Part shown: positions 37,967-52,192 of the stretch, piece after piece
How the letters are laid out: each line of letters starts with the position of its first letter
Numbering within the stretch: position 1 is the first letter of the stretch
From: Arthrobacter sp. zg-Y820
Lineage (GTDB): Bacteria > Actinomycetota > Actinomycetes > Actinomycetales > Micrococcaceae
NCBI RefSeq assembly: GCF_030142155.1
Contig: NZ_CP126247.1
Span: forward strand, 372,001 to 436,000
DNA length: 64,000 bases
Reading direction: 5' to 3'
Position numbers and translations under genes: made by a program
The notes under the pieces: model-generated
Database searches by the model: none
What the model was told of the DNA's origin: nothing
Seen by the model: only the letters and a program-made list of their open reading frames with translations

Positions 37967-38212
37967 TGAAAAGTTGCTCCGGAGCGACGCAGAGCGGAAG
38001 GTCCCCTGGATCTGAGCCTGCCGGTGCCGGAAGCAGTCTGTTGTTTGAGAACTCAATAGTGTGCCAAGTTTATTGATACCAATTATTTTAATTGGTTGAA
38101 CTGGTTCTTCCGCCCACCCCGTGGGTTGGGAGGACTTTTTTAGCTGGTTTCGAATTTAGTGCAGGACCGTGCAGCCAATTTTCCTTGGCTCCGGTGCTGT
38201 GTCTGTAACACA

Positions 38213-39742
38213 TTTACGGAGAGTTTGATCCTGGCTCAGGATGAACGCTGGCGGCGTGCTTAACACATGCAAGTCGAACGATGACTTTTGTGCTTGCACA
38301 AAATGATTAGTGGCGAACGGGTGAGTAACACGTGAGTAACCTGCCCTTAACTTCGGGATAAGCCTGGGAAACCGGGTCTAATACCGGATACGACGGTCCA
38401 CCGCATGGTGGTCCGTGGAAAGCTTGATGCGGTTTTGGATGGACTCGCGGCCTATCAGCTAGTTGGTTGGGGTAATGGCCCACCAAGGCGACGACGGGTA
38501 GCCGGCCTGAGAGGGTGACCGGCCACACTGGGACTGAGACACGGCCCAGACTCCTACGGGAGGCAGCAGTGGGGAATATTGCACAATGGGCGAAAGCCTG
38601 ATGCAGCGACGCCGCGTGAGGGACGAAGGCCTTCGGGTTGTAAACCTCTTTCAGCAGGGAAGAAGCGAAAGTGACGGTACCTGCAGAAGAAGCGCCGGCT
38701 AACTACGTGCCAGCAGCCGCGGTAATACGTAGGGCGCAAGCGTTATCCGGAATTATTGGGCGTAAAGAGCTCGTAGGCGGTTTGTCGCGTCTGCTGTGAA
38801 AGCCCGGGGCTCAACCCCGGGTCTGCAGTGGGTACGGGCAGACTAGAGTGCAGTAGGGGAGACTGGAATTCCTGGTGTAGCGGTGAAATGCGCAGATATC
38901 AGGAGGAACACCGATGGCGAAGGCAGGTCTCTGGGCTGTAACTGACGCTGAGGAGCGAAAGCATGGGGAGCGAACAGGATTAGATACCCTGGTAGTCCAT
39001 GCCGTAAACGTTGGGCACTAGGTGTGGGGGACATTCCACGTTTTCCGCGCCGTAGCTAACGCATTAAGTGCCCCGCCTGGGGAGTACGGCCGCAAGGCTA
39101 AAACTCAAAGGAATTGACGGGGGCCCGCACAAGCGGCGGAGCATGCGGATTAATTCGATGCAACGCGAAGAACCTTACCAAGGCTTGACATGAACCGGAA
39201 AAGCGTAGAAATACGCTCCCCACTTGTGGTCGGTTTACAGGTGGTGCATGGTTGTCGTCAGCTCGTGTCGTGAGATGTTGGGTTAAGTCCCGCAACGAGC
39301 GCAACCCTCGTTCTATGTTGCCAGCGCGTTATGGCGGGGACTCATAGGAGACTGCCGGGGTCAACTCGGAGGAAGGTGGGGACGACGTCAAATCATCATG
39401 CCCCTTATGTCTTGGGCTTCACGCATGCTACAATGGCCGGTACAAAGGGTTGCGATACTGTGAGGTGGAGCTAATCCCAAAAAGCCGGTCTCAGTTCGGA
39501 TTGAGGTCTGCAACTCGACCTCATGAAGTTGGAGTCGCTAGTAATCGCAGATCAGCAACGCTGCGGTGAATACGTTCCCGGGCCTTGTACACACCGCCCG
39601 TCAAGTCACGAAAGTTGGTAACACCCGAAGCCGGTGGCCTAACCCCTTGTGGGAGGGAGCCGTCGAAGGTGGGACCGGCGATTGGGACTAAGTCGTAACA
39701 AGGTAGCCGTACCGGAAGGTGCGGCTGGATCACCTCCTTTCT
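38213..39742 (+). rRNA. rrs: 16S ribosomal RNA (operon 1)
   Basis: It begins TTACGGAGAGTTTGATCCTG and contains CAGCAGCCGCGGTAATAC, ATTAGATACCCTGGTAGTCC and TTGTACACACCGCCCGTC. It ends with the anti-Shine-Dalgarno CACCTCCTTTCT at 39731-39742. The 5' end may be off by a few nt. Sequence character is Micrococcaceae-like. Confidence 0.97.
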
Positions 39743-40279
39743 AAGGAGCACCTCAGAGTTTTCCGTGTCCTTCCACAGTGTTGGAGGCGGGCTTTGCAGG
39801 AGATGCCCATCTCGGAGACATTCGTTCTCCGGTGGGTGCTCAAGGGTGGAATATCAATAAGCAGGTGCCCGGCGTTGAGCCTGGCAGTCTAGTACGCCGT
39901 GCGTGCCCCACTTGTGGGGCGTTGTATTGGTTGGAAACCGCTGCCGGTCTTCAAGTACCGGGTTTTTCCGTTTGGCACACTGTTGGGTCCTGAGACAACA
40001 GGACCGAAGAATTTCAAGCCTTCTTGAAGGGTTGGAAGGGACACGGTTTCGTGTTGTTTCTGATTGTTCCTGCGCAGGTCCAAGACCATCCACGGTGAAT
40101 ACGTGGTGGTGGCGGGGTGTGACGGGGTTGTTGTTTGAGAACTACATAGTGGACGCGAGCATCTTAAAATTATTAAGTGCAATTTCAGATAAACCTGGTG
40201 CTCCGGGTCATGCCCTTGCGGTGTGGTCCGGTGTTGTCATGGTTTTCTCGATAGCAGGAAATATTTATTGATCTTTGTG
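39743..40279 (+). other. 16S-23S internal transcribed spacer (operon 1)
   Basis: No spacer tRNA is present in these 537 nt. A hairpin at 39905-39920 (GCCCCA, loop CTTG, TGGGGC) falls in the block that differs from operon 2. ACATAGTGGACGC at 40144-40156 is perfectly complementary to 43516-43528 beyond 23S and should form the pre-23S processing stem. Confidence 0.85.
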
Positions 40280-43200
40280 GTCAAGTTTTTAAGGGCACAC
40301 GGTGGATGCCTTGGCATCAGGAGCCGAAGAAGGACGTAGGAATCTGCGATAAGCCTGGGGGAGTTGATAACCGAGCGTTGATCCCAGGATGTCCGAATGG
40401 GGAAACCCCGCCCGGCGCGCGAGTGACCGGGTGACCCGCATCTGAACACATAGGGTGCGTGGAGGGAACGTGGGGAAGTGAAACATCTCAGTACCCACAG
40501 GAAGAGAAAACAACAGTGATTCCGTTAGTAGTGGCGAGCGAACGCGGAAGAGGCTAAACCAGTGGTGTGTGATAGCCGGCGGGCGTTGCATCACTGGGGT
40601 TGCGGGACTTTCCGTACCGATTCTGCCGGATCGGTGAAGTGAGTGCAGATGCATAGGTGAACTGGTTTGAAAGCCAGGCCGTAGAGGGTGTTAGCCCCGT
40701 AACCGGAATGTATGCTGCCGCTTGGAGAGGATCCCAAGTAGCACGGGGCCCGAGAAATCCCGTGCGAATCTGCCAGGACCACCTGGTAAGCCTAAATACT
40801 CCCTGATGACCGATAGCGGACAAGTACCGTGAGGGAAAGGTGAAAAGTACCCCGGGAGGGGAGTGAAACAGTACCTGAAACCGTGTGCCTACAATCCGTT
40901 GGAGCAGGGCGATGCCACTTGTGGTGTCGTGCTTGTGACAGCGTGCCTTTTGAAGAATGAGCCTGCGAGTTAGTGTTACGTCGCGAGGTTAACCCGTGAG
41001 GGGAAGCCGTAGCGAAAGCGAGTCTGAACAGGGCGATGCAGTGGCGTGATCTAGACCCGAAGCGGAGTGATCTACCCATGGCCAGGTTGAAGCGCGTGTA
41101 AGAGCGCGTGGAGGACCGAACCCACTTCAGTTGAAAATGGAGGGGATGAGCTGTGGGTAGGGGTGAAAGGCCAATCAAACTCCGTGATAGCTGGTTCTCC
41201 CCGAAATGCATTTAGGTGCAGCGTTGCGTGTTTCTTACCGGAGGTAGAGCTACTGGATGGCTAATGGGCCCTACAAGGTTACTGACGTCAGCCAAACTCC
41301 GAATGCCGGTAAGTGAGAGCGCAGCAGTGAGACTGTGGGGGATAAGCTTCATAGTCGAGAGGGAAACAGCCCAGACCACCAACTAAGGCCCCTAAGCGTG
41401 TGCTAAGTGGGAAAGGATGTGGAGTTGCGAAGACAACCAGGAGGTTGGCTTAGAAGCAGCCATCCTTGAAAGAGTGCGTAATAGCTCACTGGTCAAGTGA
41501 TTCCGCGCCGACAATGTAGCGGGGCTCAAGTACACCGCCGAAGTTGTGGCATTCAAATATTAGCCAAGCGGATGGTTTATCCATTTTCGTTCAAGCGTTT
41601 GGATGGGTAGGGGAGCGTCGTGTGGGCAGTGAAGTCGCGGTGTAAACCAGCGGTGGAGCCTACACGAGTGAGAATGCAGGCATGAGTAGCGAAAGACGGG
41701 TGAGAAACCCGTCCGCCGAATGATCAAGGGTTCCAGGGTCAAGCTAATCTGCCCTGGGTAAGTCGGGACCTAAGGCGAGGCCGACAGGCGTAGTCGATGG
41801 ACAACGGGTTGATATTCCCGTACCGGCGAAAAACCGCCAATACCAAGCGGGGGACACTAACCGCCCAATACCTGACCGGCCGCCCTTGTGGCGACCCGGT
41901 TTTTGGTGGAGCGCGGGACCTGATCCTGGGAGGTAAGCGTATTAACAGGTGTGACGCAGGAAGGTAGCCGGGCCGGGCGATGGTTGTCCTGGTCTAAGGA
42001 TGTAGGGTCAGCGATAGGTAAATCCGTTGCTGTGTCTTTGATGACGATACCTGAGATCTGATGGGACCCACTTTGGTGGGAATCCGGTGATCCTATGCTG
42101 CCTAGAAAAGCATCGGCGCGAGGTTTTAGCCGCCCGTACCCCAAACCGACACAGGTGATCAGGTAGAGAATACTAAGGCGATCGAGAGAATTATGGTTAA
42201 GGAACTCGGCAAAATGCCCCCGTAACTTCGGGAGAAGGGGGGCCCCAACCTTGATGGACACTTGCTGTCCGGAGGGGATCGGGGCCGCAGAGACCAGGGG
42301 GAAGCGACTGTTTACTAAAAACACAGGTCCGTGCGAAGTCGCAAGACGATGTATACGGACTGACTCCTGCCCGGTGCTGGAAGGTTAAGAGGACCGGTTA
42401 GCCCTTACGGGCGAAGCTGGGAATTTAAGCCCCAGTAAACGGCGGTGGTAACTATAACCATCCTAAGGTAGCGAAATTCCTTGTCGGGTAAGTTCCGACC
42501 TGCACGAATGGAGTAACGACTTCCCCGCTGTCTCAACCATAAACTCGGCGAAATTGCAGTACGAGTAAAGATGCTCGTTACGCGCAGCAGGACGGAAAGA
42601 CCCCGAGACCTTTACTATAGTTTGGTATTGATATTCGGTGTGGCTTGTGTAGGATAGGTGGGAGACTGTGAGACCCGGACGCCAGTTCGGGTGGAGTCAT
42701 CGTTGAAATACCACTCTGGTCATACTGGATATCTAACTTCGGCCCGTAATCCGGGTCAGGGACAGTGCCTGATGGGTAGTTTAACTGGGGCGGTTGCCTC
42801 CTAAAGAGTAACGGAGGCGCCCAAAGGTTCCCTCAGCCTGGTTGGCAATCAGGTGGCGAGTGTAAGTGCACAAGGGAGCTTGACTGTGAGAGAGACATCT
42901 CAAGCAGGGACGAAAGTCGGGACTAGTGATCCGGCGGTACATTGTGGAATGGCCGTCGCTCAACGGATAAAAGGTACCTCGGGGATAACAGGCTGATCTT
43001 GCCCAAGAGTCCATATCGACGGCATGGTTTGGCACCTCGATGTCGGCTCGTCGCATCCTGGGGCTGGAGTAGGTCCCAAGGGTTGGGCTGTTCGCCCATT
43101 AAAGCGGTACGCGAGCTGGGTTTAGAACGTCGTGAGACAGTTCGGTCCCTATCCGCTGCGCGCGCAGGAAATTTGAGAAGGGCTGTCCTTAGTACGAGAG

Positions 43201-51947: not shown

Positions 51948-52067
51948 GTTACGGCGGTCATAGCGTGGGGGAAACGCCCGGTCCCATTCCGAACCCGGAA
52001 GCTAAGACCCACAGCGCCGATGGTACTGCATCCGGGAGGATGTGGGAGAGTAGGTCACCGCCGGACA
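51948..52067 (+). rRNA. rrf: 5S ribosomal RNA (operon 2)
   Basis: Identical to the operon 1 copy. One base differs 23 nt upstream (A51925 against T43700). Confidence 0.95.
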
Positions 52068-52102
52068 ATATTTACGGTTGAAAGACACCGGTTGTTCAGA
52101 GA

Positions 52103-52137
52103 GTAAGGCCCCGCCATTGGCGGGGCCTTACTTGTTT
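52103..52137 (+). terminator. Terminator of rRNA operon 2
   Basis: Same 13-bp stem and TTGTTT tail as operon 1 (stem 52103-52115 with 52119-52131). Confidence 0.88.
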
Positions 52138-52192
52138 AACCAGGGTGTTCCAGGCCCGCCGGCACCCTCCCGGGCCCTGGTTCTCTTTGCGC

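Follow-up and report, generated by a model that had tools for sequence, protein, structure and literature searches.

A thioester-domain adhesin gene enclosed by tandem rRNA operons at a conserved locus in Arthrobacter

The analyzed window, a stretch of 64,000 nucleotides from Arthrobacter sp. zg-Y820, contains two complete, almost identical rRNA (rrn) operons in tandem, which enclose the gene for a predicted thioester-domain (TED) surface adhesin. The same rrn-adhesin-rrn arrangement was present between orthologous flanks at this locus, here called beta, in all 14 near-closed genomes of the genus that were compared. We consider it probable (roughly 0.6) that the adhesin belongs to an old, selected unit that has been copied or moved among rrn loci via homologous recombination through rRNA. 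The unit would comprise the adhesin with its own leader and one rrn operon (8.2 kb here), with beta as its home site and the rRNA operons as both its address and its means of moving. Through recombination between homologous rRNA genes, other rrn loci could gain or lose it, perhaps by a RecA-type crossover such as the integration of an excised circle, and adhesin number and rRNA dose would then change together. At beta, the unit would be kept in place by selection.

Direct repeat copies A (38037..43920, + strand; the first complete operon with leader and 3' trailer) and B (46262..52145, +; the second complete operon) are each 5,884 bp long, are offset by 8,225 bp, and enclose 2,341 bp, which agrees to the base with the geometry given in an earlier note on this DNA. 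Full 16S, 23S, and 5S rRNA genes were identified in both by Rfam (RF00177, RF02541, and RF00001), at 38213..39740, 40279..43444, and 43725..43841 in the first operon and at 46438..47965, 48504..51669, and 51950..52066 in the second, all on the + strand. The genome has seven operons, and none of these three genes varies among them. The repeats are 99.8% alike. A MAFFT alignment of 38028-43920 with 46254-52145 contained 15 differing columns, two of them just left of the repeats; 11 of the 13 within the repeats form a patch in the 16S-23S spacer (39908..39953, +), and the others are single columns at 40040 and 43700. A hairpin with 15-nt, 100% complementary arms follows the first 5S gene (43877..43907, +) and is probably the rrn terminator. 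The promoter/leader region of the second operon (45955..46261, +) shows ~98% identity with the alpha and gamma operon leaders of this genome, and the promoter scan found one promoter-like sequence there (46168-46196), with 0.8 expected. The locus is bordered by conserved genes, identified by Pfam, for a maltokinase-GlgB fusion upstream (33901..37725, +) and a kinase-like DUF4032 protein downstream (54757..56178, -), and both outer flanks match in the other 13 genomes.

The adhesin gene (44084..45895, +) is the only gene identified between the operons; five other open frames in this spacer had no Pfam match. Its 603-aa product has a signal peptide (recognized by eye), a TED at residues ~62-348, a DUF5979 stalk, and an LPKTG anchor (sorting motif at 45779..45793, +). 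Pfam matches to the TED (PF08341), to DUF5979 in two stretches (PF19407), and, above the cut-off, to the LPXTG anchor (PF00746) bear out the earlier description of a single enclosed LPXTG adhesin with a thioester domain. In addition to the C-terminal LPXTG anchor in the protein, four sortase matches were found in the genome. The predicted thioester residues, Cys124 (codon 44453..44455, +) and Gln325 (45056..45058, +), are invariant in 30 of 30 aligned proteins, as is the tyrosine at position 123, so that the [YFL]C thioester motif used as a TED criterion (PMC4450167) is present throughout. The thioester glutamine is described as lying in a weak hydrophobic-Gln motif of the last strand (PMC4450167, PMC6194298), and in class II proteins such motifs are often hard to recognize (PMC4450167). 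Here, Gln325 precedes strand 326-346 of the structure model. Strands at 225-288, situated after the helices and ahead of strand 326-346, match the beta-sandwich insertion that precedes the Gln strand. Among the fold matches, the class II structures 6fwv and 6fwy came first or near the top in both lists, with a model pTM of only 0.51; in one list, 6fx6 ranked sixth and the class I structure 5a0l seventh. A PDB sequence search with the adhesin gave no match at E 0.01. Taken from Pfam, alignment, and structure model, the protein appears to be a class II-like TED adhesin, whose predicted job would be covalent adhesion. Its close known systems are the class II TIE surface proteins BaTIE and EfmTIE86 (PMC6194298; PDB 6fwv and 6fwy), compared with which the Arthrobacter protein carries a stalk assigned by Pfam to DUF5979.

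Expression signals around the adhesin gene were partly recognizable. The adhesin leader (43988..44083, +) is highly conserved in six aligned type-2 cassettes, across roughly the final 95 nt preceding the start, and includes a possible ribosome-binding site, AGGAAG, at 44072-44077. An RNA element in this leader was considered and rejected, as its fold was no better than that of shuffled sequences (z 0.51) and all Rfam matches were below the gathering score. The adhesin may or may not be expressed through read-through from the upstream rrn operon; no promoter was detected between the 5S gene and the adhesin by a scan limited to the sigma-70 consensus. A G+C-rich hairpin with 14-nt, 93% complementary arms follows the gene (45920..45953, +). 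The terminator of its own that the earlier note ascribed to the adhesin is a less firm point than the note had it, as the terminator scan listed neither this hairpin nor the one after the first 5S gene.

Fifteen genomes were assembled into three or fewer contigs, and 14 of them, one per species, made up the near-closed set, in which end states were compared; G014 (3 contigs) was excluded on account of its fragmentary 16S matches. Loci alpha, beta, gamma, and delta were scored, with the epsilon loci of three relatives outside the analysis. The 14 genomes contain 37 TED genes, 22 of them in the spacer that immediately precedes an rrn operon and 15 elsewhere. Random placement would put 0.28 in such spacers, although orthologues are not independent observations. 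Thirteen of the 15 share one locus with both flanks in 12 genomes; those of G001 and G003 do not. All 22 short TED genes (open frame of up to 731 aa) lie upstream of rrn operons, singly or in tandem, at four rrn loci. Among 15 other genomes, 10 had no rrn-adjacent adhesin, by assembly loss or true absence.

In a draw of 245 genomes from the family, TED was found in 33, belonging to 6 of 32 genera. A 5S search of nine of the 16 other-genus genomes with TED yielded 5S genes in six and none in three; TED and 5S were at least 135 kb apart on one contig in four of the six and on different contigs in two. A DNA comparison with named relatives covered only three loci (44 to 45% identity), with no rRNA in the compared stretches. 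Among the best 120 of 277 protein homologues, 116 of which had a contig size, the longest contig was ≤3.1 kb for 50 of 63 close homologues versus 0 of 13 long TED homologues. As the close homologues in this best 120 are mostly on database contigs of ~2.4 kb, the gene family can readily be dropped or misplaced when surface proteins are surveyed. Among the open-licence papers listed, none dealt with an rrn-flanked adhesin or with this genus.

The other rrn loci occur in more than one state. At delta, an adhesin cassette is present in 2 of the 14 genomes (G000 and G010), while 12 have a single rrn operon; the upstream flank matches in 14 genomes and the downstream flank in 13 (all but G017). At alpha, rrn-adhesin-adhesin-rrn was found in one genome (G028). 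The rrn number equals 5 plus gamma plus extra pairs in all 14 genomes, a bookkeeping rule derived from the same data, which means that an extra pair is not offset by operon loss elsewhere. The coupling of adhesin and rRNA dose suggested in the earlier note therefore holds across species at delta and alpha, where adhesin and one operon are present or absent together between the same flanks, but not at beta. The presence of the delta cassette requires two changes on the flank-gene tree. Gain rather than loss may account for it, and loss from an ancestral delta cassette would be possible should losses come more readily than gains. At the 29 alpha, delta, and gamma loci without an adhesin, no adhesin relic was found among the matches listed, which came from 5S or leader stretches included in the query sequences.

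Some arrangements call for more than crossover within a pair. An adhesin precedes a single rrn operon at gamma of G000, at alpha of G001, and at alpha of draft genome G015; this state cannot be produced by crossover between the operons of a pair, and another event is needed. Two observations favor the proposed unit: at gamma of G000, a 3' 5S relic is kept before the adhesin, 8 bases past the stop of a conserved gene, and draft genome G006 has a contig (C4) made up of an rrn-plus-adhesin unit whose ends overlap by 78 bp.

If the unit were inserted as proposed, the inner trailer, after the first operon, should be cassette-like and the outer trailer native to the locus. Inner trailers were cassette-like at both delta cassettes: that of G000 matches its own beta trailer (96% over 220 bp), and that of G010 matches beta of G028 (91% over 219 bp). 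The outer trailer was native at delta of G010 and alpha of G028, but that of delta in G000 resembles the beta trailer (93% over 151 bp). At alpha of G028, the best match of the inner trailer was the genome's own outer beta trailer (94% over 53 bp), followed by those of inner beta in G021 and G017 (81% over 58). Both patterns occur together only at delta of G010, which lowers our confidence in a mobile unit. The rrn leaders are homogenized across the genome and are uninformative on the junctions. Unlike a transposon, integron, or other element with a dedicated recombinase, the unit showed neither a recombinase gene nor terminal repeats, and no inverted repeat frames the spacer ends.

Alternatively, an ancient tandem rrn duplication may have trapped the adhesin, which would persist because either rRNA dose or the adhesin itself is under purifying selection; the extra copies would be rare by-products and the linkage would have no adaptive role. 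This is possible, though in our judgment rather unlikely. It fits the fixation of beta in 14 of 14 genomes and the near homogeneity of rrn operons in most genomes. It also fits alpha of G016, where one of the four extra rrn pairs lacks an adhesin, which counts against the proposed unit. Against it stands the confinement of all 22 short TED genes of the 14 genomes to spacers upstream of rrn operons, at four different loci. The preferred reading of an old unit moving through rRNA can be taken further: the operons might offer adhesin cassettes a set of equivalent sockets with homology arms in common, so that a unit without a recombinase spreads among the rrn loci within a genome and, for type-2, also between species. 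Such spread would let adhesin repertoire and ribosomal dose evolve together, with segments reshuffled, and we propose it only tentatively.

Whether conserved rRNA arms allow adhesin cassettes to be swapped between species in which other genes are too diverged to recombine well is doubtful. The type-2 TED genes of two clades differ less at synonymous sites (median dS 0.36, minimum 0.15) than glgB (median 0.97) or the non-rrn TED genes (median 1.12). The window gene is a mosaic whose TED is closest to beta of G028 (94%) and whose stalk is closest to beta of G022 (91%). Moreover, clade-I grouping of the TED was rejected (P = 1.9e-5) by an AU test whose groups were defined with the tree already in view. 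In contrast, type-1 adhesins occupy the same slot with near-saturated dS (median 2.46), which rules out rRNA flanks as a sufficient cause of interspecies exchange. A TED gene outside rrn, that of G000, also lies unusually near clade II, with dS from 0.41 to 0.61 in the four nearest comparisons, which weakens the case for rRNA flanks as a necessary cause. In the trees and dS tables, the open frames at beta in G016 and G022 were used as they stand, without repair, and beta of G001, on a long branch, was outside the type-1 and type-2 dS groups.

Crossover between the window repeats, dropping the adhesin and one operon in part of a population, would yield adhesin-free cells with a lower rRNA dose. 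The length and similarity of the repeats, the two-state loci across species, and the recombination between flanking rRNA operons that followed an induced double-strand break in Bacillus anthracis (PMC6208641) are consistent with such a switch. Nevertheless, the deletion that the earlier note envisaged at the window locus was seen in none of the 14 species, all of which keep both operons and at least one adhesin gene at beta, largely the fixed state that the note itself had named as evidence against it. Deletion as a switch would be conjectural and finds little support at beta. Likewise, the rrn pair persists where adhesin frames look damaged (split in G016, with an internal TGA in G022), and a protein that agrees at 598 of 603 residues is also known, presumably belonging to a further strain of the same species. 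We regard a deletion switch as improbable. Although misassembly is known to arise at rrn repeats (PMC4851793), a duplicated or misplaced repeat is very improbable, and as far as the sequence tells the arrangement is not an assembly duplication, because leaders and spacer alleles differ between copies A and B and because the arrangement recurs with orthologous flanks in the 13 other assemblies.

These genomes form a natural set with physical linkage between a surface adhesin and rRNA gene dose, which co-vary at two loci. As a consequence, sister species can serve as controls in tests of what rrn copy number and tandem repeats prone to recombination cost and what they bring.

In Bacillus subtilis, one of two tandem rrn operons is lost together with the intervening DNA when crossover takes place between them. 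That deletion is a laboratory instability, whereas the Arthrobacter arrangement is a conserved adhesin locus. The nearest precedent is the bacitracin-resistance cluster of the Bacillus cereus group, which is flanked by rRNA operons in a structure conserved in the group, has been deleted, possibly by unequal crossing over, and has amplification potential (PMC6208641). Both systems place a gene module between direct rRNA operon repeats, conserved in one group (14 of 14 genomes here). The Bacillus cluster shows strain-level deletions at the same locus with a tested phenotype, whereas natural deletion of the module with one operon was found at the Arthrobacter home locus in 0 of 14 species. Unlike the Bacillus cluster, the Arthrobacter module also occurs at other rrn loci, and its cargo is a wall-anchored adhesin.

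The thioester-domain (TED) gene in the window (44084 to 45895, plus strand; 603 amino acids), to which we assign an adhesin function inferred from the domains of its protein, is indeed enclosed by two rRNA (rrn) operons. The earlier note had proposed that crossover between these 5884-bp repeats would remove the adhesin together with one operon, coupling adhesin loss to rRNA dose. Of 29 genomes of the genus, 15 consisted of three contigs or fewer, and exclusion of G014, in which 16S matches were fragments, left 14 near-closed genomes. From these, the rrn loci alpha, beta, gamma, and delta (at about 0.2, 0.4, 0.6, and 1.3 Mb, respectively, in the source genome, G000) were extracted, and rRNA genes and adhesins were mapped. 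At beta, the window locus, two operons enclosed one or two adhesins in all 14 genomes, and each outer flank matched those of the other 13. A deletion switch at this locus is therefore unsupported. At beta, the adhesin frame was split in G016 and broken by a TGA in G022, with both operons kept; this damage may be sequencing error.

The proposed tie between adhesin and rRNA dose is supported structurally, across species, at two other loci, delta and alpha, but not as a deletion switch at beta. Delta carried an rrn-adhesin-rrn unit in two genomes (G000 and G010) and a single operon in 12. Alpha held a single operon in 11 genomes, two adhesins between two operons in G028, an adhesin with a single operon in G001, and two operons with no adhesin between them in G016. 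The 2.3 kb enclosed in the latter (locus L092, 12513 to 14841) contained a minus-strand open frame resembling, by eye, a glyoxalase/VOC protein. A second 5S gene was observed ~250 to 1,800 bases beyond the first, after the alpha operon, in G001, G010, G016, G017, G020, G021, G026, and G028. Gamma was present in six genomes and had an adhesin only in G000. In all 14 genomes, rrn number equaled five plus gamma plus extra pairs. This rule, a bookkeeping relation drawn from those loci themselves, says that no extra pair was offset by loss elsewhere. Protein and leader searches of 29 adhesin-free loci revealed no adhesin relic among the matches listed, which were to 5S and leader sequence included in the queries.

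The G000 assembly comprises two contigs, and the window spans bases 372,001 to 436,000 of a contig of 3.73 Mb. Its relatives place it in the Micrococcaceae: Arthrobacter crystallopoietes gives the best plasmid-borne 16S match (96.9%), and Arthrobacter also supplies the nearest named adhesin homologues. The genome has seven rrn operons and four TED genes. Three of these genes, namely the window gene and those at 1.32 Mb and 0.59 Mb, directly precede an rrn operon. The 1.32-Mb gene belongs to a second rrn-adhesin-rrn pair, alignable with the window end to end (96.7% over 14,254 columns), with 82% identity in the adhesin and spacers. The adhesin at 0.59 Mb (gamma) precedes a single operon and follows a diverged 5S gene (L023, 7550 to 7659; G000 contig C1, 589550 to 589659), apparently the remnant of a lost operon and best matching at its 3' end. 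This 5S scores 44 bits versus 107 for an intact 5S, and its well-matching 3' part begins 8 bases past the stop codon of a frame (503 codons) that four relatives likewise carry ahead of their gamma operon.

Across the 14 near-closed genomes, 22 of 37 TED genes were located in a spacer that precedes an rrn operon, in the orientation of that operon. Of these, 20 were flanked by two operons (3 with a second adhesin after them), and the other 2 stood ahead of a single operon. The random expectation was 0.28; the orthologues are not independent, and at least six separate placements are required. The remaining 15 genes are longer and lie elsewhere. A single locus with common flanks accounts for 13 of them, in 12 genomes; those of G003 (L133) and G001 (L132) sit at other places, without the flanks of the other twelve. 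Among the 15 other genomes of the genus, an adhesin adjoined 5S or 16S in five (G006, G012, G014, G015, and G018) and was found next to neither in ten, an absence that is uninformative because short-read assemblies break at rrn operons. The protein homologue set (best 120 of 277), whose closest named members are from Arthrobacter, shows the same effect. The longest contig did not exceed 3.1 kb for 50 of the 63 homologues that shared 50% identity or more and were no longer than 720 amino acids (median, 2,428 bp among contigs up to 10 kb) and for 0 of 13 with at least 900 amino acids. One of the 63, identical to the window protein at 598 of 603 residues, lay on a 2,657-bp contig; the 5S-to-16S distance in the window is 2,597. 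In the draft G006, the ends of an 8,552-bp contig carrying rrn and adhesin overlapped exactly by 78 bp. Collapse of the rrn operons on both sides of an adhesin should give such a contig; alternatively, it may be a free circle. The beta adhesins of G003, G007, G024, and G026 had the sorting motif LAKTG or LAETG rather than LPXTG, perhaps serving another sortase class.

Movement between loci by homologous recombination is our best reading, with a probability of about three in five. If crossover took place within rRNA, the trailer behind the first operon (inner trailer) should be of cassette type and that behind the second (outer trailer) native to the locus. Both predictions hold for delta of G010, whose inner trailer matches beta of G028 (91% over 219 bp) and whose outer trailer is closest to delta of G021 and G020. 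In G000, only the inner trailer of delta agrees, with 96% identity over 220 bp to beta of the same genome; the outer one is instead closest to the outer beta trailer of G000 (93% over 151). At alpha of G028, only the outer trailer is as predicted, native; the inner one is instead closest to the outer beta trailer of that genome (94% over 53 bp), followed by the inner beta trailers of G021 and G017 (81% over 58 bp). The delta cassette requires two changes on the flank-protein tree, most simply two gains, although losses may occur more readily and such counts cannot give direction. The downstream flank of delta in G017 (L109) matches the epsilon flank of G000, a match that a large inversion through rrn operons would produce. 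That an adhesin can precede a lone rrn operon is shown by gamma of G000 and by alpha of G001 and the draft G015; crossover between an operon pair cannot produce this arrangement.

A TED tree of 30 proteins, including two outgroup rows, contained two main clades, type 1 (14) and type 2 (11). The beta slot held type 1 in seven species, type 2 in four, both in two, and an unplaced long branch in one. The window gene combines segments of different affinity, making it a mosaic: beta of G028, which belongs to the other species clade, is closest for the TED (94% of 822 DNA columns), and beta of G022 is closest for the stalk (91% of 657). With groups named after the trees were seen, clade-I grouping was rejected in the TED tree (AU p 1.9e-5), and in the stalk tree pairing with G028 was rejected (p 9.4e-46) and clade-I grouping gave p 0.044. 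Over 300 bp, the 3' spacer of the window gene shows no difference from that of delta in G000, where leaders are homogenized anyway.

Exchange driven by the rRNA flanks alone is an insufficient explanation, as type 1 in the same slot does not look exchanged and a TED gene away from rrn is also close to the other clade. Median dS between species clades was 0.97 for glgB, 0.88 for the kinase, 1.12 for non-rrn TED, 0.36 for type-2 TED, and 2.46 for type-1 TED; type 2 thus looks to have been exchanged between species and type 1 not. The non-rrn TED gene of G000 (C1, 1173259 to 1176267; L027) is unusually close to those of the other clade, with dS values of 0.41 to 0.61 for the four nearest versus the median of 1.12, suggesting import.

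Six type-2 cassettes, drawn from both species clades, showed strong conservation of the window adhesin leader (43988 to 44083), which had no match to a known RNA family and no significant fold. Elsewhere in the window, an msiK RNA motif (57317 to 57374, minus strand) immediately precedes the gene (56224 to 57315) for a MalK/MsiK-like ABC ATPase.

Among the papers listed by our literature searches, we found no adhesin cargo between rrn operons, no case of such an arrangement being fixed at a single locus across a genus, and no comparable units at further rrn loci. The concept itself, a module flanked by rrn operons and prone to deletion, is already known: in PMC6208641, a bacitracin-resistance cluster flanked by rRNA operons is described as deleted in anthracis strains, possibly by unequal crossing over, and as having the potential for amplification.
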